Assembly (NCBI GenBank): GCA_026414765.1
Contig: JAOAIJ010000037.1
Span: 1 to 54,681 of the forward strand
Source: Clostridia bacterium
GTDB lineage: Bacteria > Bacillota > Clostridia > Acetivibrionales > DSM-27016
Length of the DNA: 54,681 nucleotides
Reading direction: 5' to 3'
The position numbers were made by a program, and so were the translations under genes. Positions 29,949 to 41,247 of the stretch are shown here, piece by piece (the first letter of the stretch is position 1; each line of letters opens with the position of its first letter). Below the pieces are notes generated by a model, which had not been told where the DNA came from, did not search any database, and was given only the letters and a program-made list of their open reading frames with translations.

Positions 29949-31745
29949 TTATGCAGGCAATTGAATTATAAACTCTGTTCCTTTGCCCGGATTGCTGTTA
30001 ACTCTAATATCACCGTTATAAAGATTCACAATATGCTTTACTATTGATAGGCCAAGACCTGTTCCACCCATGTTTCTGGATCTTCCCTTATCAACCCGGT
30101 AAAATCTTTCAAAAATTCTGGGTATATGCTCCTGCGCGATGCCTATACCCGTATCGCTTACTATAATTACTACTTTTCCTTCGGATCTGTAGCTTTTTAC
30201 GTTGACAGCACCGTTTTCACTATTATACTTTATTGCGTTATCGATAAGGTTTATGAGCATTTGCTTGATACGGTCCTTATTGGCAATTATTGTAATGTTG
30301 CTGTCGATTTCGTCTGTGACAGTTATGCCTTTCTTTTCTGCAACTCCCTGGAGTATTGAAAGTACTTCTTCTACAATGGATTTTAAATTGTGCTTTTCTA
30401 TGTTTGAGTCCTTTTGGCGGTTTTCTATTTCAGAAAGCTGCAAGATATCATTTATGAGCATATACAGTCTTTCAGCTTCTATATCAATAATTTCCAGGAA
30501 TTTCTCCGATACGTCAGCATTGTTTATAGCGCCGCTTCTGAGTGTCTCGACAAAACCGCGTATTGATGTCAATGGTGTCTTCAGTTCATGTGTTACATTT
30601 GAAACAAATTCAGTTCTGATCTGCTCCAGTTTTTTGATATTTGTTATGTCCTGTATGAAGATAATACCTCCTGATATTTCATGTAGTCCGGAGTATTCTG
30701 AATCCTTTGGTTTTATCGGATTTGTATATACTCTTAAGACCTTATCTTCAGGTGGTCCGATTATTACTTCATTAATAAGGGATGTATTCTGTTCTACGGC
30801 TTTTTTGACATACGCATTTATCTGATTGTTGCGCACCAGCTCCAGAATATTATGGCCTAATACTTCTGCTTCATTTTTTACATTGAACATTTCCCGGGCC
30901 ATATCATTTATGAGGATAATTCTATATTTGGTATCTACAGCTACTATCCCGTTTATCATACTATTCATTATTGAATCGAATTTTACATTTTTATCAATAA
31001 GATTATCGACGGTTTCTTCCAGTTTAGCGGCCATATCGTTAAAAGTCTTGGAAAGAAGTCCGAACTCATCTTTTGTCGCAATATTTACACGCTTTGTATA
31101 GTTTCCCTTCGATATCTCATTGGATATGGCTATCAATTCATTAATAGGCTTGATTGCAGATGATGAGAATTTTAGAGCAAGTAATGTTGTAAGCAATAAA
31201 GCTGCGAGAATACCAATAATAGTATAATACCAGATTATTTTATCTATGTTTTTCAACATCATCAGAGGTACGGACACCCTGACTATGATCTGGTATTCTT
31301 TGATAGGCATGGCTATATAAAGGTAATCAACGTCCAGCGTTTTGCTGTGACGTATATCCTTACCAGTTTTTCCCTTGACAGCTTGTTGGATTTCCAGACG
31401 GTTAAGGTGGTTTTCCATCGTATGGTAATCGTCTTCGGATTCACCTAATACATTGCCCTTGAAATCAATGAATGTAATTCTTGAATGAATTGCTTCTGAA
31501 GAATAAGCTGCATCCGGGTTGATAAGCAGACCTGCATACTTGTTTGCAATACGGTTATAGTCCAGATCATCTTTTTCCGATATATATTCCGAGACCCTGT
31601 CTTTGATCAGCGATGCGGTATCTATCAGTTTGTTTTCTACTTCCTGCTTGTAGAATTTTTGTGTCAGTTCCGAGATAAAAAAGCCTGTAACTGATATACC
31701 TATTATTATAAGAATAATATAGTACAGGAAAATCTTTCTTTTCAT
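29949..31745 (-). CDS. phoR: Phosphate-regulon sensor histidine kinase PhoR
   Basis: A membrane sensor kinase of 598 residues and the last gene of the pst-pho operon. An N-terminal membrane helix (about 5-27), an extracytoplasmic sensor domain (about 30-165), a second helix (about 170-190), HAMP (about 192-245) and a PAS domain (about 250-360) precede the HisKA domain. The phospho-accepting His is in VTHELKTPLTS (about 385). The HATPase domain has N, G1 (DTGIGI) and G2 (GGTGLGLSI) boxes. It phosphorylates the response regulator encoded 62 bp upstream. AAAGGTGG precedes the ATG. The length and sensor domain match the Gram-positive PhoR/WalK-like type. Confidence 0.93.
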   Translation of the reverse strand: MKRKIFLYYIILIIIGISVTGFFISELTQKFYKQEVENKLIDTASLIKDRVSEYISEKDDLDYNRIANKYAGLLINPDAAYSSEAIHSRITFIDFKGNVLGESEDDYHTMENHLNRLEIQQAVKGKTGKDIRHSKTLDVDYLYIAMPIKEYQIIVRVSVPLMMLKNIDKIIWYYTIIGILAALLLTTLLALKFSSSAIKPINELIAISNEISKGNYTKRVNIATKDEFGLLSKTFNDMAAKLEETVDNLIDKNVKFDSIMNSMINGIVAVDTKYRIILINDMAREMFNVKNEAEVLGHNILELVRNNQINAYVKKAVEQNTSLINEVIIGPPEDKVLRVYTNPIKPKDSEYSGLHEISGGIIFIQDITNIKKLEQIRTEFVSNVTHELKTPLTSIRGFVETLRSGAINNADVSEKFLEIIDIEAERLYMLINDILQLSEIENRQKDSNIEKHNLKSIVEEVLSILQGVAEKKGITVTDEIDSNITIIANKDRIKQMLINLIDNAIKYNSENGAVNVKSYRSEGKVVIIVSDTGIGIAQEHIPRIFERFYRVDKGRSRNMGGTGLGLSIVKHIVNLYNGDIRVNSNPGKGTEFIIQLPA

Positions 31746-31807: not shown

Positions 31808-32521
31808 TTACTTGTGTTTTGACCCCTTGTCATTGAATCTGTATCCTATACCCCTTACTGTTTCAATGTATACGGGATTATTGTCGTCATCCTCAATCTT
31901 TTGCCGCAAATACCTTATATGGACATCTACAGTTCTGGTTTCCCCATAGTAATCAAAACCCCAGACTTTTTCAAGAAGCAAATCCCTTGATAGAACCTTA
32001 CCTTTATTTATGACAAGCATTTTCAACAGTTCAAACTCCTTTAGAGGCAGTTCCAGAAGGTTACCTGCTTTATAGACTTCTCTCCGTACACAGTCTATGC
32101 TGATATCGCCATGCTTTATAAGCTCTGTTTCTTCAGGAGAAGGATTATTGACACGTCTGAACAGGGCCTTGACACGGGCAACAAGTTCTCTTACACTGAA
32201 CGGCTTGGTTATGTAATCATCTGCTCCGAGTTCCAATCCCAATACCTTGTCAAACTCTTCACTTTTTGCGGTTAACATTATTATAGGGATGTTTTTTGTA
32301 CGTATATTCTGTCTAAGCTGTCTACATACCTCAAGGCCGTCTATCCCGGGAAGCATGATATCCAATATGAATAAATCGGGAACGGCAGATTTACACTCAT
32401 TAAGGAGACTTTCACCGCTGTCGAATGTCAGTACCTTATACCCGTTGGTTTCAAGGTTATATTTGATTAATTGCTGTATGTGGCTTTCATCCTCAACAGC
32501 AAATATTAATTCTTTTGACAT
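31808..32521 (-). CDS. phoB: Phosphate-regulon response regulator, OmpR family
   Basis: A 237-residue receiver plus winged-helix regulator. The receiver has the acidic pair E10/D11, phospho-acceptor Asp54 in FILDIMLPG, the Thr in IMLTAKSEE and the Lys in DDYITKPFS. The C-terminal OmpR-type DNA-binding domain ends in VRGIGYRFND. It sits between phoU and phoR and is the obvious candidate to bind the 11-bp repeats upstream of pstS and of the PiT operon. GGAGG 5 nt before the ATG supports the start. The gene could equally be named phoP in Gram-positive usage. Confidence 0.94.
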   Translation of the reverse strand: MSKELIFAVEDESHIQQLIKYNLETNGYKVLTFDSGESLLNECKSAVPDLFILDIMLPGIDGLEVCRQLRQNIRTKNIPIIMLTAKSEEFDKVLGLELGADDYITKPFSVRELVARVKALFRRVNNPSPEETELIKHGDISIDCVRREVYKAGNLLELPLKEFELLKMLVINKGKVLSRDLLLEKVWGFDYYGETRTVDVHIRYLRQKIEDDDNNPVYIETVRGIGYRFNDKGSKHK

Positions 32522-32615: not shown

Positions 32616-33314
32616 TCATGTCAAATCTTTTTTTATATCTTTAACGGAACTGTTCTGGTGAGTCAAATGATCATGTTCTCCTGTAACGTTAAACACAACC
32701 CACTCACCGATATTTGTAGCGTGATCAGCCATTCTTTCCAGGTATTTTGCTATAAGCATGAAGTCGATTGCCTGTTCTATAGTATCAGGATCATTTTTCA
32801 TAAGATTTATCAACTCAAGTGTTATCTTGGAAAAAAGATTATCAACGTCATCATCGCTGTTGCATACTGCCTGTGCAAGTTCTATATCCTGCCTGATATA
32901 TGCATCAATTGATCTGTTGACCATTTTTTTTGCCAGTTCAGCCATTCTGGGTATATCAATAAGAGGTTTTATATATTTAACATTTGCCATTCTGATTGTA
33001 ATTTCGGCTATATCAGCAGAATGGTCTGCGATCCTTTCCATATCCGTAATTATCTTCAGAGCCGTGCTTATAGTCCTTAAATCCTTTGCAAGAGGCTGTT
33101 GTCGTGCTATAAGATTCAGGCAGATTCTTTCTATTTTTTGTTCCATATCATCTATTATATCATCATCTTCAAATATCTTTTTTGCCAGTTCTAAATCCTG
33201 CTTCTTTAATGCATGTATAGTTTTTTCTATGGATTCTTCAACAAGGCTCCCCATTTTTATAATCTGCAGATGAAGCTCTTCAAGCTCTCTATCAAAAAAG
33301 TGTCTTGTAACCAT
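32616..33314 (-). CDS. phoU: Phosphate transport regulator PhoU
   Basis: A 232-residue all-helical protein with two PhoU repeats. Each has the metal-binding E/DxxxD pattern: DMERIADHSADIAE in the first half, YLERMADHATNIGEWV in the second. It links the Pst transporter to the PhoR kinase to keep the regulon off when phosphate is plentiful. An ATG at the 33329 end has no ribosome binding site, while GGAGTGG lies 6 nt before the next in-frame ATG (33314). The latter start gives the usual MVTRHFFDREL N-terminus. It lies between pstB and phoB. Confidence 0.95.
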   Translation of the reverse strand: MVTRHFFDRELEELHLQIIKMGSLVEESIEKTIHALKKQDLELAKKIFEDDDIIDDMEQKIERICLNLIARQQPLAKDLRTISTALKIITDMERIADHSADIAEITIRMANVKYIKPLIDIPRMAELAKKMVNRSIDAYIRQDIELAQAVCNSDDDVDNLFSKITLELINLMKNDPDTIEQAIDFMLIAKYLERMADHATNIGEWVVFNVTGEHDHLTHQNSSVKDIKKDLT

Positions 33315-33401
33315 AATAATCCACTCCATTTTATATAATTTCTGTTGCCAATAGTGACTGCAATCTGTTTAAAATATTCGTTTGGAATAATTCATTACTA
33401 A

Positions 33402-34163
33402 CTATCCGAAACGACCTGTTATATAGTCTTCCGTTCGTTTATCCGCGGGTATACTGAATATTTTTTCGGTATGATCATATTCAATAATCTCTCCATGAAG
33501 GAAAAAAGCAGTTTTATCGGATATTCGCCCTGCCTGCTGCATATTATGCGTAACTATGACTATAGTATAGTTTTCCTTTAATTCATCTATTAAATCCTCA
33601 ATTTTGAGGGTAGATATCGGGTCCAGTGCAGATGTGGGTTCATCCATAAGGACTACTTCAGGCTCGACAGCTAGAACTCTGGCTATGCACAATCTCTGCT
33701 GCTGTCCTCCTGACAATCCAAGTGCGTTTTGTCTTAATCTGTCCTTGACTTCATCCCATAGTGCAGCGTTAACTAAGCTTTTCTCTACGATTTCATCAAG
33801 CTTTGCCTTGGATTTTATTCCATGTATCCTGGGTCCATATGCAACATTATCATAAACAGACATGGGGAAGGGGTTTGGCTTCTGAAAAACCATACCCACC
33901 TTTTTCCTCAGTTCAACTATATCATATTCCTGATATACATTCAAACCGTCAAAGAATACATCTCCTGTTATTTTTACGTTAGCTATCAGATCATTCATTC
34001 TGTTCAGGGTTTTTAAAAATGTAGACTTACCGCATCCTGATGGACCTATGAGCGCTGTTACCTTTTTTTCCTCAATATTGATACTTATATTCTTTAAAGC
34101 CTGGGATTCTCCATAAAAGAGGTTAAGGCCATTGGTGTATAGCTTGAATTCATTATTTTTCAC
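33402..34163 (-). CDS. pstB: Phosphate ABC transporter ATP-binding protein PstB
   Basis: The 253-residue ATPase of the high-affinity phosphate importer. It has Walker [10 protein letters not shown] (residues 40-48), a Q-loop in [10 protein letters not shown], the signature [13 protein letters not shown], Walker [13 protein letters not shown] and the H-loop His in [11 protein letters not shown]. The Phe-rich [18 protein letters not shown] segment is diagnostic of PstB. It lies 139 bp downstream of pstA; the spacer shows no gene. Confidence 0.97.
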
Positions 34164-34302
34164 AAAATCAACCCTTCTTTGTTAAGATTAGCAGGAGCTG
34201 CTACCTTATTATTATTGACAGCAGTAATCCTATTATTGCGTGGATTAAGACAAGTTTAGCAATTGTAAATTAATGCCCGGTTAAATATCTGTTAACTTTG
34301 GG

Positions 34303-35151
34303 TTAACTGCCCATTGTAGCTTTCCTTATATTATGTGCTATTCTGCCTGCCAGAAAATTAATAAATGCAACGACGACTACCAATACTGCAGCGGTTGCGA
34401 AAGCCTGCTCAAAGGATAATCCTTCCTTAGCAAGCTGGTACAGATGGACAGAAAGAGTCCTTCCTGATTTCATCAAGTTTGACGGGATATTCGGTGCATA
34501 GCCGAAAGTCAAATATACTGCAGCAGTTTCACCTACTATACGACCTATACTAAGGATGACAGCCGTCAATATTCCGGATATGGCACAGGGTAAAATAACC
34601 TTTACAATGGTAGTCAGCTTCGTTGCTCCAAGAGCAAGACTACCTTCCTTGTAAGATACCGGAACAGCTTTCAGAGCCTCCTCTGTAGTTCTTATGATAG
34701 TGGGGAGAACCATAATACTTAGAGTGAGGGCTCCTGATAAAAGTGAAAACCTGAAATGCAGTATTACTACAAAGAATATGTAACCGAAGAGTCCATAAAT
34801 GATTGATGGTATACCGGCAAGTGTTTCAGTGGCAAAACGTATGATATTCAAAACCTTACCGGGCTTTGAGTATTCAACCAGATAAATGGCTGCGCATATG
34901 CCGATAGGTGTTGAAATCACAATAGTGAGAGATACAAGGTAAAGGGTGCTGATAATCATGGGAAATACTCCATGCAAGTCTTTTCCAGGCTTGTAGACCG
35001 TGCTAATGAAATCCCAGTTTATTTGTGTTATCCCTTTTGAAATGATATAAATAAGAATCCAAGCCAGAATACCTATAGTAAAGAAAGAAAACATCCATAT
35101 AAGAACCTTTAGAGTATTATCCAGAATTTTTGTTTTTTTCATCTTATTCAC
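34303..35151 (-). CDS. pstA: Phosphate ABC transporter permease PstA
   Basis: A 282-residue inner-membrane permease with six hydrophobic helices. PstA landmarks are GIPSIIYGLFG (about 115) and the EAA loop KEGSLALGATKLTTI (about 168), which contacts PstB. Its start overlaps the pstC 3' end by 8 bp, so the pair is translationally coupled, forming the transport channel. Confidence 0.96.
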   Translation of the reverse strand: MNKMKKTKILDNTLKVLIWMFSFFTIGILAWILIYIISKGITQINWDFISTVYKPGKDLHGVFPMIISTLYLVSLTIVISTPIGICAAIYLVEYSKPGKVLNIIRFATETLAGIPSIIYGLFGYIFFVVILHFRFSLLSGALTLSIMVLPTIIRTTEEALKAVPVSYKEGSLALGATKLTTIVKVILPCAISGILTAVILSIGRIVGETAAVYLTFGYAPNIPSNLMKSGRTLSVHLYQLAKEGLSFEQAFATAAVLVVVVAFINFLAGRIAHNIRKATMGS

Positions 35152-36085
35152 CGGCCTTCTTGTAAATTATAAGATTTAGAATTATATTCAATATCATAAT
35201 AAAAACAAACAGTATAACACCTGTAGCAAAAAGTGCTTCTTGATGAAGCCCCTGTGCATAACCCATTTCAAGTGCTATATTTGACGTCAGTGTACGCACA
35301 CGGTCTGTCACGGCATGTGGAATCATGGGGGTGTTACCGGTAATAAGAATTACTGCCATGGTTTCTCCTATGGCTCTGCCGGTACCTAATACTATGGCAG
35401 TAAGGATTCCTGATTTTGCAGCAGGAAGAATGACTCTGAAGATAGTTTGTATATGGGTAGCTCCGAGAGCCAGAGAACCTTCTTTATACGAATTCGGTAC
35501 TGCACGCATGGAAGTCTCTGAAATACTGACAATCGTGGGAAGAATCATAATGGATAGTATTATGATACCTGCCAATAAGCTGTTTCCTTCTCCACCTATA
35601 TATTGTCTTATCAAAGGGACAATAACAATCAGGCCAAAAAAACCATATACTATTGAAGGGATTCCCGCAAGAAGCTCTATTGCAGGCCTGAATACTCTGA
35701 CCATCCATTTGGGGGCTATTTCTGCAAGAAAGATTGCGGTGAATAAACCGATTATTACTCCGAATATAACTGCTCCCAGGGTAGCTAAAATTGATGCTAC
35801 AATGAATGGAAATATACCATACTCACCGGCAGAAGGCATCCATGTGGTGCCTGAAATGAATTTCCATACGCCGATTTTGAAAATAGCAGGGGACCCTTTT
35901 ACAAAAATATAAATTGCTATTATTAATACTGATAGAATTGCAACACAAGCACACAATAAAAAAATATTCTCAACGATTTTTTCTAGTGTTTTTTTGAACC
36001 TTTTGTTCTTTCTACCTGTAAGTCCGGATTTTTCTTTAGCTTCAGACCTGCTGGAGAAAGAAGTGGTATTATTAAATGATGCCAT
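35144..36085 (-). CDS. pstC: Phosphate ABC transporter permease PstC
   Basis: The 313-residue partner permease. A cytoplasmic, basic N-terminal tail (residues 1-35) precedes six membrane helices. GIPSIVYGFFG (about 145) and the EAA loop KEGSLALGATHIQTI (about 200) are typical. GGAGG lies 9 nt before the ATG. It follows pstS after a 168-bp spacer that contains a strong hairpin. Confidence 0.96.
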   Translation of the reverse strand: MASFNNTTSFSSRSEAKEKSGLTGRKNKRFKKTLEKIVENIFLLCACVAILSVLIIAIYIFVKGSPAIFKIGVWKFISGTTWMPSAGEYGIFPFIVASILATLGAVIFGVIIGLFTAIFLAEIAPKWMVRVFRPAIELLAGIPSIVYGFFGLIVIVPLIRQYIGGEGNSLLAGIIILSIMILPTIVSISETSMRAVPNSYKEGSLALGATHIQTIFRVILPAAKSGILTAIVLGTGRAIGETMAVILITGNTPMIPHAVTDRVRTLTSNIALEMGYAQGLHQEALFATGVILFVFIMILNIILNLIIYKKAGE

Positions 36086-36253: not shown

Positions 36254-37156
36254 TTATTTAACTTTTATATACTTGTGTTCAGCAACTACTTCCTGACCTT
36301 TTTCTCCCAGGATATAGTCGATGAATGCTTTTACTTCAGGCTTCATATCACCCTTTGTAAGCATAAGGAAAGGTCTTGATATTGCATAGGTTTTACTTTT
36401 TATGTTTTCTATGGTAGCTTCAATACCATCAATCTTGACTGTCTTTATTGTTTTATCTACTGAACCCAGAGATATATATCCTATAGCGTTATCCTTGCTT
36501 GCTATATTAGCAAGTACGGCACCTGAACCGTCAGCAATCAGGGCATCTGCTTTTACCAGGGAAATTGTCTTGTCGCCTTCTTTCTTTTCAAGTTTCAGAA
36601 TTTCTTCAAAGGCTCCTCTTGTACCAGATCCTGCTTCACGGCTTACAACAAGGATTTCCTTGTCAGCTCCGCCTACTTCCTTCCAGTTCTTAATCTCACC
36701 TTTGAATATTTTTGCAACCTGGTCTTTTGTCAGGTCTGATACTGCATTAGCAGGATTAACAGCTACAGCTATACCATCAAGTGCTATAACATGCTCTGTA
36801 AGTCCCCAACCTTTTTCTTCCTCTTTAAGGTCACGGGAAGAAGTTCCTATATCGCTTGTTCCGTCGTTTGCTGACTTAACGCCTGAAGTTGAACCGCCAC
36901 CTTGTACATCAATAGTCACACCTGACTCTATATCGCCGAAAGCGTCCGCCAGGGCTTGTGCTATGGGTTGAACCGAAGTTGAACCTACTATTGTAATGCT
37001 GCCTTCCAGTTTCTTTCCGCCGGAATCTCCTGCCGGTTTAGTTGCTGCCGGATCATTTGTGTTTTCTTTTTGGCCACATCCTGTGAAAACAAGTGAAAAT
37101 GCGAAAACCATGACTAACATTAGAGTGAGTGATTTAGTAATTGTTGACCTTCTCAT
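36254..37156 (-). CDS. pstS: Phosphate-binding lipoprotein PstS
   Basis: A 300-residue extracellular phosphate receptor. The lipoprotein signal peptide ends in LVFTGC with the lipidated Cys27, followed by a short Asn/Lys-rich tether. The mature domain starts with GSITIVGSTSVQP, in which Ser/Thr residues bind phosphate; GGGSTSGVK, TSSRDLKEEE and SREAGSGTRGAF are further ligand-loop motifs. It is the first gene of the pst-pho operon and directly follows the Pho-type repeat array. Confidence 0.96.
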   Translation of the reverse strand: MRRSTITKSLTLMLVMVFAFSLVFTGCGQKENTNDPAATKPAGDSGGKKLEGSITIVGSTSVQPIAQALADAFGDIESGVTIDVQGGGSTSGVKSANDGTSDIGTSSRDLKEEEKGWGLTEHVIALDGIAVAVNPANAVSDLTKDQVAKIFKGEIKNWKEVGGADKEILVVSREAGSGTRGAFEEILKLEKKEGDKTISLVKADALIADGSGAVLANIASKDNAIGYISLGSVDKTIKTVKIDGIEATIENIKSKTYAISRPFLMLTKGDMKPEVKAFIDYILGEKGQEVVAEHKYIKVK

Positions 37157-37303
37157 GAATTAATTCCTCCTACAAATCATTAAGTAAAGTTTTTAATAAC
37201 GTTTTGTCCTTGCAGATTTATATTAGTTTTCTCAAATTAATTAGTCATTAAGCAATTGTTAAGGGAAAGTAAATTTTAAAATCTTTCCAGTTTCAGAATC
37301 AGG

Positions 37304-37368
37304 TTAATAGGAACGTGCAGTAAATTAACCCTAACTTAATATTGTCTTAACAGTAACGTTAATATAAT
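37304..37368. promoter_or_regulatory. Pho-type repeat array between pstS and the chemoreceptor gene
   Basis: Read on the - strand, four 7-bp units follow in exact 11-bp steps: ATTAACG, TGTTAAG, TATTAAG and GGTTAAT (37324-37363). A -10-like TATTAA for pstS lies at 37304-37309, with the last unit near its -35 position. On the + strand TATAAT (37363-37368) abuts the array and could serve the divergent chemoreceptor gene. The layout matches PhoP/PhoB-activated promoters and the array at 16620. Confidence 0.75.
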
Positions 37369-37448
37369 CATAGTAGATATTATGTTGACAATACATAATA
37401 TGGAAGAATCAGACACAGCTATAACGTAAAAAAAATGGAGTGATTAGT

Positions 37449-39494
37449 ATGAAACATTTAAAAAAGAAACCTATTTTCATTTCTTCGCTAAAAACGCAGC
37501 TCGTTACAGTACTTATTATCATGTCTATAGTCCCTATGGTCTCTGCCGGTATTTTTACATACTTAAGCACAAAGGAAAATATGGGCGTGGAAAAAAGAAA
37601 TACGCTGAAAGCTTACTCAAGGGTGATCCTGGAGAGTATAGAAAGCAAAATGGAGGTTGCAGACAACTCTCTTAGGGGGATGGCCAATAATGCAGACCTT
37701 ATTTCCACACTTACAGATTTTAATTTATTTTCTAAGACTGATAACACCATAAGATACTATTCCATACAGATGGCCTTAAGCGGAGTTGTGAAAAACTCTC
37801 AGAAGCTTTATAGCACCGTATTAGTTTATGATATTAACGGTAAGGCTGTAATGTATGGCTCAAAGCAGAGTGAAAGTAAGATAGGAACTGATTTCTATTC
37901 TCCTGAGGCATTTGAATATTTAAAAAGGCATAATACTTTCTTGATAGGTAATCCGATAACTGAAGGAGAGAAGGGGAAGATTCTTATTCCCGTCTCAAGA
38001 CCCATAAGCAGTGCAAAGGGTTTTATAGGGGTAATTACTATAATGTTTGATCATAAAGAACTGACAGAAGGTTATGATAAATTCAATTTCGCTGCTACCG
38101 GAGCAGTATTGGTTATAAATAAGGATAACAGGATACTATTTCATAATGATAGTAAACTGATTAACAGTCAGAATAAATCAGTGGATCTAAAAAATATTTT
38201 AAAGGAAGAAACCGAAAGTGCATTTAGAACTTATAATTTTGCTGGTAAGGAGAATATGCTTTTTTTTCAAAAATCAGGCAGGACAGGCTGGCTGATATGT
38301 ACGCAGGTGCAAAACAGCGAATTTTATAAATCCGTAAACGATTTTAAAAGCTTTATCATTATAGTGATACTGTTGCTCATAGTTCTGGCAACAGTAATAT
38401 CACTGGTGTTTTCGAGCTATATTTCCAGACCTGTTACAAAACTGACTGCAATGATGAAAAGCATTTCGACAGGAGATTTAAGAGTGGCAGCTGATTTTAA
38501 AACTACAGTAAGAGAAATGGAAGAATTGAAGCAAGGTTTTGCAAGTATGATAGAAAACCTGAAGAGACTCATAAAAGACATTGTTGATGCTTCAGGCTAT
38601 ATAGGTGGAACCACAGCATACATGACAGCTGCGTCACAGAATTCTCTTGAGCATGCCGGGGATACACTGAATGCAGTAATAGATATCACTGGATGCATAC
38701 AGGAACAGGCGGCGGGTACTGAAGTAGCTGCAAAAAATGTGGAAGAGCTTGCAGAGAAAATTGGTATTTCCATAAGGCTGTCAAACGAAGCCGGTGAAAG
38801 CTCAAAAAGGGTTAATGATGCTGCAGAAAATGGGTTGAAGCTTGTAGACATTCTAAGGATAAAATCTGATGAAAATATCAGGAATACTCAGATGGTAGAT
38901 AATGTAATACAACTCCTAAGTGAAGAAATTACGGAGATAAACAAGATTGCAAAAACCATAACCAATATAGCAAAACAGACAAATCTCCTGGCACTCAATG
39001 CTTCGATTGAAGCTGCGAGAGCCGGTGATGCAGGAAAAGGTTTTTCAGTGGTTGCAGGAGAGATACAGTTGCTATCAGAACAAACCAAAAGCGAGGCAGG
39101 AGAAATTAACAAGCTCATATTCAGTATACAAAAGAAATCAGAAGAGCTTGTAACTACTATGAAAGATGCAAACAATGCGGCAGACAAGCAGAACGAGGCT
39201 GTCCTGGATACACAGGCTGCGTTTGGTTCAATCTACAAGTCTATCAAAGAAGTCATTGCAAAAACTGTAAAAATATCAAAGCATCTTGACGAAATGAGTA
39301 TACAGAAAACCGGCATAGTAGGACTGGTCAGAAACTTAAACGAAATTGCTGAGGAAATTGCAGCAAGCTCGGAGAGTGTACAGCAATTTACTGAAAATCA
39401 GATCAAAATAGTGAAAGATGTTCACAGTTATGCTGATAATCTGAATGAATTAGTAGACAGACTTCAAAAATCGATAAAGCATTTTAGCCTTTAA
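37449..39494 (+). CDS. Methyl-accepting chemotaxis protein
   Basis: A transmembrane chemoreceptor of 681 residues. TM1 (about 14-36) and TM2 (about 300-325) flank a large extracellular dCache-like sensor domain. A HAMP domain (about 325-380) and a long cytoplasmic coiled coil follow, with the kinase/CheW-binding hairpin tip around [18 protein letters not shown] (about 515). A GTG at 37440 is in frame, but GGAG at 37437-37440 serves the ATG at 37449. It is divergent from pstS across a shared 290-bp region with Pho-type repeats, which raises the possibility that it is phosphate-regulated or senses phosphate (inference). A cheW lies about 1.8 kb downstream. Confidence 0.93.
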
Positions 39495-39583: not shown

Positions 39584-40108
39584 ATGACATGGTATCACAA
39601 AGCCTCAAATATTGCCTCATATAACAGGGAAAAGGCTGTAGAATATGCTCATAAATGGGCATATACGCGTAATAGCTCATATCTGGACTTTGAAAAGCTT
39701 GGGGGTGATTGCACTAATTTCGCTTCTCAGGTTATTTTTGCCGGGAGCGGTGTAATGAACTTTACTCCCGTTCATGGGTGGTATTATATAAATTCACGGA
39801 AAAGGACGGCTTCATGGACAGGTGTAAATTTTCTCCATAATTTTCTGATTAATAACAGAGGCGCAGGACCTTTCGGTGAGGTTGTTGACGTAAAGGATGT
39901 TGAACCCGGTGATATAGCTCAATTATCTTTTAACAGTGACGGTATGTTCAACCATACGCCGATAATAGTGAAAGCCGGAACTCCCCCGGCTCTGGATAAT
40001 TTATTGATAGCAGCACACACGTATGACAGGGATAATTATGAAATAACAAACTATAATTGGGTTCATATAAGGTTTATTCATATCATAGGAGTGAGAGCTT
40101 CTGGTTGA
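39584..40108 (+). CDS. Putative amidase-domain (NlpC/P60-like fold) protein
   Basis: A 174-residue protein matching the Amidase_6 (PF12671-type) domain often seen in clostridial and bacillar proteins. The candidate catalytic Cys43 lies in GGDCTNFASQ and the His124 in FNHTPIIV; HGWYY and the DVEPGDIAQL strand are also typical. The cysteine-histidine arrangement suggests peptidoglycan-peptide or related amide hydrolysis. Unlike most relatives it has no signal peptide or wall-binding domain, so the site of action is unclear. GCGGTGA precedes the ATG. It sits between the chemoreceptor and a PAP2 phosphatase, all on the + strand. Confidence 0.8.
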   Translation: MTWYHKASNIASYNREKAVEYAHKWAYTRNSSYLDFEKLGGDCTNFASQVIFAGSGVMNFTPVHGWYYINSRKRTASWTGVNFLHNFLINNRGAGPFGEVVDVKDVEPGDIAQLSFNSDGMFNHTPIIVKAGTPPALDNLLIAAHTYDRDNYEITNYNWVHIRFIHIIGVRASG

Positions 40109-40192
40109 TAGTTTACAGTAAGATAACAATAACCTCATACTGTTTTAATAATACTTTTATAGAATCAGAGCGATACTGGTGGAGGTGATAAA

Positions 40193-40726
40193 ATGTCCTC
40201 AATAACTGCTATTATTAAGAAAAATGATGTTATTGTTTTCTTTCTGCTAAACAGGAAAATGCATTGTCGTATACTGAATGTGTTGATGAAAGCTGTCACA
40301 CAATTGGGATCTGCAGGCTTTGTTGTGAGCCTGGCAACAGTTTGTTTGCTGTATGATCTTGCATATTATTCACGTATTGGTGCACTCGTTGTACTAAACC
40401 TGATTGTCAGTCAGGTAATAATACAACTTGTTAAGCGTATAGCAAACAGGCCCAGACCATATAAAACATTTGATTGGGTAATTGCTGTCAAACCGCCGGA
40501 GTGTAAATACTCTTTCCCTTCAGGGCATACAAGTGCTGCATTTTCATTAGCTTTTGTACTTACTTATACAATTCCGGCTTTTTCGCTTATATTCATTTTT
40601 CCCGCTGTCTTAGTAGGAATCTCGCGGATATACCTTGGCTGCCATTTCCCGACAGATGTGATTATAGGATTTTTGATTTCATATATTACCTTTATATGCA
40701 TATTACAAATAATGCCTTTATCCTAA
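40193..40726 (+). CDS. PAP2-family membrane phosphatase
   Basis: A 177-residue integral membrane phosphatase. The three catalytic motifs are present: K81-x6-RP (KRIANRPRP), PSGH (109-112) and SR-x5-H-x3-D (R145, H151, D155). About five hydrophobic helices surround them. Candidate substrates are undecaprenyl pyrophosphate or phosphatidylglycerol phosphate, as for other short PAP2 proteins. GGTGGAGGTGA precedes the ATG. There is no evidence to link it to bacitracin resistance beyond family membership. Confidence 0.9.
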   Translation: MSSITAIIKKNDVIVFFLLNRKMHCRILNVLMKAVTQLGSAGFVVSLATVCLLYDLAYYSRIGALVVLNLIVSQVIIQLVKRIANRPRPYKTFDWVIAVKPPECKYSFPSGHTSAAFSLAFVLTYTIPAFSLIFIFPAVLVGISRIYLGCHFPTDVIIGFLISYITFICILQIMPLS

Positions 40727-40820
40727 AATTTACCTTAAATTTACTTTGTATTAATACCGGGTTAATCTGAATGAGAAATAATTCCATTGTTTATATCTGT
40801 AATCCCTGGAGGGAGAAACA

Positions 40821-41213
40821 TTGCGCTCTGTTTTGTTAATAAATGAAAATACGGAAAGTCTGTATCTGTTAAAGAGCTTTTTAAGAAAAGAAGGTTATAA
40901 GGTATATAGTTCACACCGGATTATGGAAGGTTTTTTCAAAGCCCAGTATAAGTTACCTGATTTAATCATGGTAAATCTGGACAATACGGACAGCAGTAAG
41001 TACAACTTTATAAGAAAAGTGAGATCGGATGTCAAACTTGCTGATACTTTTATAGTTGTGATTTCTTCAAAAAAAGATGAACTCAGTAAAGTGATAGCAT
41101 TTGAATTGGGATGTGATGATTATGTAACCGAGCCATTGTGCTATAATGAGGTTCTTGCAAGGATAAAAGCTTTATTGAGATATTCCAAAAAGGCCATATC
41201 GTTTCCATCTTAG
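40821..41213 (+). CDS. Stand-alone pseudo-receiver (response regulator lacking the phospho-acceptor Asp)
   Basis: A 130-residue single-domain protein with a clear receiver fold but degenerate active site. Asn52 replaces the phospho-acceptor Asp (PDLIMVNLD), N8/E9 replace the acidic pair, Ser82 replaces the switch Thr, and Glu104 replaces the Lys (DDYVTEPL, where DDYITKPF is usual). The C-terminal LARIKALLRY resembles the start of an OmpR-type linker, so it looks like a truncated OmpR regulator. It starts with TTG after GGAGGGAG (5-nt spacing). The coding 3' end forms part of the terminator. It probably acts by phosphorylation-independent protein contact; the partner is unknown. Confidence 0.85.
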   Translation: MRSVLLINENTESLYLLKSFLRKEGYKVYSSHRIMEGFFKAQYKLPDLIMVNLDNTDSSKYNFIRKVRSDVKLADTFIVVISSKKDELSKVIAFELGCDDYVTEPLCYNEVLARIKALLRYSKKAISFPS

Positions 41214-41234
41214 TAAGGAAATGATATGGCCTTT
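41187..41234. terminator. Bidirectional terminator between receiver and cheW
   Basis: The stem AAAAGGCCATATC-TTTCC / GGAAA-GATATGGCCTTTT includes the last codons and stop of the receiver gene. T-runs occur on both strands, so it serves both convergent genes. Confidence 0.85.
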
Positions 41235-41247
41235 TTTCTTCATTATT

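Follow-up and report, generated by a model that had tools for sequence, protein, structure and literature searches.

A pst-linked dCache chemoreceptor gene with a predicted Pho-type promoter suggests a tie between phosphate starvation and chemotaxis in clostridia

Bacteria are known to make chemoreceptors for phosphate when phosphate is scarce. Pseudomonas aeruginosa is reported to raise its production of CtpH and CtpL when phosphate is low, and CtpL is stimulated by Pi-loaded PstS (PMC4926252, PMC9864684). In Campylobacter jejuni, tlp2 is reported to be co-transcribed with phoX, and a tlp2 mutant to show weaker Pi taxis (PMC6250842). Among the literature matches listed, phosphate receptors with a worked-out mechanism are Gram-negative, namely those of P. 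aeruginosa, with C. jejuni added by its mutant. The open-licence titles and abstract openings among these matches, a set that leaves subscription papers mostly outside, contain no phosphate taxis and no pst-linked or Pho-controlled receptor in clostridia. The expected control element is described from elsewhere: Bacillus PhoP boxes are given as TT(T/A/C)ACA (PMC6327384) and the PHO box as an 11-nt direct repeat (PMC4415409).

We analyzed a clostridial locus in which pstS and a chemoreceptor gene diverge. The window, by which we mean the whole stretch of 54,681 nucleotides, carries the following features between and at these two genes.

36254 to 37156, minus strand: pstS, phosphate-binding protein (TIGR02136 above cut-off), signal peptide with a lipobox-like FTGC by eye
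37235 to 37273, minus strand: pstS array TTTACT/TTAACA/TTAATG/TTAATT, four units in 11-bp steps, then N9 and TAATAT (37225-37220); pattern and composite scan
37325 to 37352, plus strand: Pho-type array of the chemoreceptor, TTAACC-N5-TTAATA-N5-TTAACA; motif and held-out composite score
37359 to 37364, plus strand: TTAATA, counted as a fourth unit in the preliminary description, at a 12-bp step and overlapping the TATAAT; without a counterpart in the relative G001
37363 to 37368, plus strand: TATAAT, the probable -10 of the chemoreceptor, which follows the 37347 unit at a distance of 10 bp; hexamer and spacing as in G001 (L038)
37449 to 39494, plus strand: methyl-accepting chemoreceptor with dCache_1, HAMP and MCPsignal (Pfam, dCache fold in the model); ATG at 37449, GGAGTG at 37437

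The preliminary description had placed an array with a TATAAT at its end between pstS and the chemoreceptor, and such an array is present at 37304-37368. The plus strand reads TTAATA at 37304, TTAACC at 37325, TTAATA at 37336, TTAACA at 37347 and TTAATA at 37359, and from 37325 on, neighbouring units are 11, 11 and 12 bp apart. Three good head-to-tail units of the TT(A/T/C)A(C/T)A kind stand in 11-bp steps. The count of four claimed earlier is reached only through the 12-bp step to 37359 or through a degenerate unit one step upstream (CGTGCA at 37314). When steps of 10-12 bp were allowed, the four-unit reading that includes 37359 scored highest in the window, reaching 29.8 with GATATT as the -10, and in G001 the same flexible-step model gave three clear units, N10 and TATAAT with a score of 26.6. 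The TTAATA at 37359 may be a fourth unit, as the flexible-spacing model prefers, or part of the -10 region.

The array exceeds what chance produces. After training on just the two arrays of pstS and pstB in the window, a unit model scored the three receptor units at 20.2, above all 40 Markov copies of the 54.7-kb window (largest 17.9); read as four strict 11-bp units the array reached only 17.8, and one of the 40 null copies reached 21.8. A composite model of four units, a spacer of N9-11 and a -10 was trained on the transporter arrays of the window and of G001, G040 and G046 with the receptor promoters held out. It gave the receptor promoter of the window 26.1 and that of G001 26.8, while the maxima of 40 random strands were at most 21.6, and it is the stretch 37325-37352 that scores, with a -10 in the direction of the receptor. 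The last unit stands at N10 from the -10 before the receptor versus N9 before pstS, pstB and a receiver gene described below.

Matches across the genome (4,558,385 bases, 96.9% complete) are concentrated at the same locus. The strict three-unit TTAAY pattern has six matches (reversed control, three), five of which fall within 3.1 kb at the pst-receptor locus, at three sites: on the receptor side, on the minus strand before pstS and on the minus strand at the pstA-pstB gap. The sixth, C6:63354, was set aside; its steps measure 12 bp, and it sits on the opposite strand in the 123 bp that separate two minus-strand genes. A looser TTWAY pattern with up to one mismatch showed no excess over its control in the whole genome (279 versus 273). 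Because this total equals the control, only the location and quality of the looser matches carry weight, and only the 19 zero-mismatch matches were used. Seven of these are in the window and occupy four sites, of which 40729 is the fourth, and two of the 12 outside it were inspected. C25:21384 (L090 1985-2011, in genome G000) is a three-unit array before a gene for a Zn-dependent phospholipase C, a plausible Pho target; C9:156044 precedes a gene that by eye resembles an AMP-binding enzyme.

One bidirectional array could in principle serve both genes, as the preliminary description had proposed, since only 292 bp separate the ATG of pstS from that of the receptor and both arrays lie inside. The claim of a common array does not hold up against the layout. 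The pstS gene has its own array on the minus strand (37273-37235), each gene has an array with a -10-like hexamer at N9 or N10 in its own direction, and G001 likewise has two separate arrays, one on the pstS side and one on the receptor side. We consider sharing most improbable and read the receptor array as the receptor's own, and either array may also influence the opposite gene.

The genes on both sides add to the picture of a Pho-controlled region.

34303 to 35151, minus strand: pstA (TIGR00974 above cut-off)
35144 to 36085, minus strand: pstC (TIGR02138 above cut-off)
34268 to 34306, minus strand: four-unit array running from the pstA stop codon into the pstA-pstB gap, N9, TAAACT; pattern and composite scan
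33402 to 34163, minus strand: pstB (TIGR00972 above cut-off)
32616 to 33329, minus strand: phoU (TIGR02135 above cut-off)
31808 to 32521, minus strand: phoP-type response regulator with REC and Trans_reg_C (Pfam; PhoB and YycF models both below cut-off), the presumed binder of the arrays
29949 to 31745, minus strand: phoR/PnpS-type histidine kinase (PnpS above cut-off)
39584 to 40108, plus strand: Amidase_6 protein, first gene past the receptor (Pfam)
40193 to 40726, plus strand: PAP2 phosphatase (Pfam)
40729 to 40767, plus strand: array TTTACC/TTTACT/TTAATA/TTAATC before the receiver gene, four units, N9, AATAAT; composite score 25.1
40821 to 41213, plus strand: lone PhoB/PhoP-type receiver domain, Asn for the phosphoacceptor Asp in the PhoP alignment (Pfam, alignment)
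41187 to 41236, plus strand: terminator-like hairpin with a T run that closes the receptor-side genes, where the receiver and CheW genes converge; -29.1 kcal/mol, z -8.9

The YycF and PhoB scores of the PhoP candidate are nearly equal. On the receptor side, a terminator scan with a loop limit of 8 scored no terminator from the receptor to the receiver gene, and it also missed the strong hairpin at 41187-41236; a single weak candidate falls within the receptor gene, at 38091. Since none was scored between the genes, the receptor-side genes may form a single transcription unit with an internal Pho promoter. A weak array-like stretch before the PAP2 gene (40112-40150, with TAGAAT at 40160) scored 16.6, within the null range, and we claim no array there. 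The lone receiver, which lacks the phosphoacceptor Asp, might tune PhoP. Its two best matches outside its own genome (in G011 and G001) are full-length regulators with, by eye, Glu at the phosphoacceptor place. On the pst side, arrays precede pstB also in G001, G033, G040, G051, G046 and G027. The array at the pstA-pstB gap is probably an older pstB promoter, a reading we adopt because the pstB of relatives points away from pstC with arrays in front; it probably persists as a relic or as a second promoter for pstB-phoU-phoP-phoR.

We then asked how far the receptor and its linkage extend through the order, using 58 genomes (that of the window included) and an ortholog threshold of E<=1e-75. 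Twelve genomes hold a receptor ortholog and 46 do not; a pstB match is present in 27 of the latter. In a midpoint-rooted tree, which omits one of 30 loci (L029) for want of a 350-aa ORF, the 12 orthologs fall on one side of a 100/100 branch versus 21 other receptors of the order. The ortholog adjoins pst in 11 of the 12 genomes. In the twelfth, G053, the contig begins 49 bp before the receptor gene, and another contig of that genome ends in pstS-pstA-pstC. A phospholipase C gene directly follows the receptor in G024 and G033, and in G013 one lies beside Amidase_6.

Two arrangements occur among the linked genomes. The family of the window has pstSCA of another type, placed before pstB, and a divergent receptor with its own promoter. 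The remaining nine of the 11 carry pstC, pstA, a binding-protein gene and the receptor on one strand, with the receptor directly downstream of the binding-protein gene. Identity of pstA to that of the window is 77% in G001 and 35-40% in the nine. Four of the nine have a small extra ORF before the binding protein, and the gap before the receptor, by first start codon, ranges from 3 to 215 bp. Pfam confirms the binding protein in four (L039, L040, L041, L044), namely all three tested relatives of other kinds and one of the Ruminiclostridium type; the other five were placed by ORF position.

The promoter element is conserved in both arrangements. In G001 it stands before the receptor: CTTAATATTGTCTTAACA is identical in the window and G001, which belong to two genera, spacer included, at 54% identity of the receptor proteins. 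In all nine co-directional relatives a four-unit Pho-like array stands before the binding-protein gene, scoring 22.6-30.7, where 300 null sequences, each of 250 nt, reached at most 13.7. Steps there are mostly 10-11-10, and in several cases even the best -10 hexamer is a poor one (TGGACT, TATTCT). Scans of three of the intervals that separate the binding-protein gene from the receptor revealed no array, from which it follows that the receptor there would depend on the upstream promoter.

The receptor might also lie beside pst through inherited gene order only, with an array that serves pst alone or is a relic. Genes other than the receptor do keep such company. The order has pstB matches at 42 places in 39 of the 58 genomes, and among the 32 pst regions without a receptor ortholog that were examined beyond 10 others, several of them ending at contig ends, nine have CheW and ArgJ beside pst, seven of these also Amidase_6. 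Because CheW, ArgJ and Amidase_6 stay beside pst without the ortholog, part of the receptor-pst linkage may be plain conserved gene order. As a full account we hold this to be very unlikely, since the receptor-facing array and its TATAAT are kept in G001 despite the divergence of the proteins and the receptor stays linked even though pstSCA type and direction differ between the family of the window and the other nine relatives. Receptors of other branches are found at pst as well, among the same 32 regions: between pstA and pstB in G011 (L059 1063-2820, 179-bp gap) and G021 (L061 7626-9359, 12-bp gap), and before pstS in G034. At E 0.001 the sensor region of the G011 and G021 receptors gave no match in Pfam. 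Another such receptor, five genes from pst in G013, is left out of this count.

The array itself, its retention in a second genus and the position of the orthologs beside pst all speak for the connection between phosphate starvation and the chemoreceptor that had been suggested at the outset, and on this sequence evidence PhoP very probably controls the receptor gene. The promoter anatomy fits activation by PhoP. We give a probability of about 0.72 to the reading that the array is a PhoP-binding promoter element of the chemoreceptor that ties phosphate starvation to chemotaxis.

What the receptor senses is a separate matter. The protein is a methyl-accepting chemotaxis protein of the dCache class, with MCPsignal, HAMP and dCache all above the Pfam cut-off, and the genome has two Flagellin_N matches and three H-kinase_dim (CheA-type) matches. 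A structure model of residues 1-341 (mean pLDDT 80.2) matches, among the best 50 fold matches, dCache domains of amino-acid, uric-acid, uracil and other receptors; none of the 50 is titled as phosphate-binding, and matches of a modelled fold do not name the ligand. A profile search of solved structures returned two weak matches, one chemoreceptor and one Cache protein. The receptor could therefore be under Pho control and yet sense something other than phosphate, such as breakdown products of cell wall or phospholipids, which would widen foraging in starvation. That dCache domains bind many ligands, as the amino-acid, uric acid and uracil binders among the fold matches illustrate, agrees with this, as do the Amidase_6 and PAP2 neighbours and the phospholipase C genes of G024 and G033. 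Linkage to a gene for a phosphate-binding protein fits phosphate better, and Mlp24, an amino-acid receptor, has a PYVD stretch, taken to contact the ligand, that is not retained here. We judge a non-phosphate ligand rather unlikely and somewhat favor a stimulus that is either phosphate itself or an organic phosphate.

How the parts would work together, from PhoP binding and induction to ligand and behavior, we infer as follows. When phosphate runs out, PhoR would phosphorylate PhoP, which would bind the head-to-tail units in tandem and bring RNA polymerase to the TATAAT that lies some 10 bp further downstream. The receptor, and probably also the Amidase_6 and PAP2 genes behind it, would then be produced along with the Pst importer, and the dCache receptor would join the chemotaxis array and steer starved cells to a source of phosphorus, the stimulus being most simply phosphate, sensed directly or through Pi-loaded PstS. 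Starved cells may thus make a sensor in order to swim towards phosphate. PstS as the go-between is a tentative idea that we think has less than an even chance. More speculative still, and on balance unlikely, is the view that Pst importer, Pho regulon and dCache receptor are inherited as a single module for phosphate foraging, with Pi-loaded PstS signalling to importer and receptor alike, and that in the genome of the window this module also has a Pho-controlled receiver without phosphoacceptor that may tune PhoP. If true, the module would be a PstS-to-dCache route in Gram-positives.

Compared with described systems, the predicted boxes resemble those of Bacillus in being direct repeats of a TTAACA-like unit, spaced 11 bp apart and close to a -10-like hexamer (PMC6327384, PMC4415409), and differ in that the units run TTAAY or TTTAC instead of TT(T/A/C)ACA (PMC6327384). 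Tlp2 of C. jejuni is similar in that a chemoreceptor gene is joined to a phosphate-related gene, there in one transcript; its promoter is reported to be induced by Pi and iron, and the abstract mentions neither a Pho-type array nor linkage to pst (PMC6250842). CtpH of P. aeruginosa is likewise a phosphate receptor raised in low phosphate, with a four-helix-bundle domain that is reported to bind Pi directly (PMC4926252). CtpL, stimulated by Pi-loaded PstS, is also a receptor raised in low phosphate, as is predicted here (PMC4926252). CtpL has a ligand-binding domain of 286 residues with nine predicted helices, whereas that of our receptor is dCache by Pfam and by fold, with no helical domain of the CtpL type, which sets it outside the CtpL family. 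Unlike CtpL as described in that report, it also adjoins pst and belongs to clostridia (PMC4926252). Starvation-induced phosphate receptors are already known, and the pst-linked dCache receptor would be a variant of them. Through Ruminiclostridium and its relatives, such a receptor would widen the range of phosphate taxis to anaerobes that degrade cellulose, and it would allow a direct test of PstS driving a dCache receptor.
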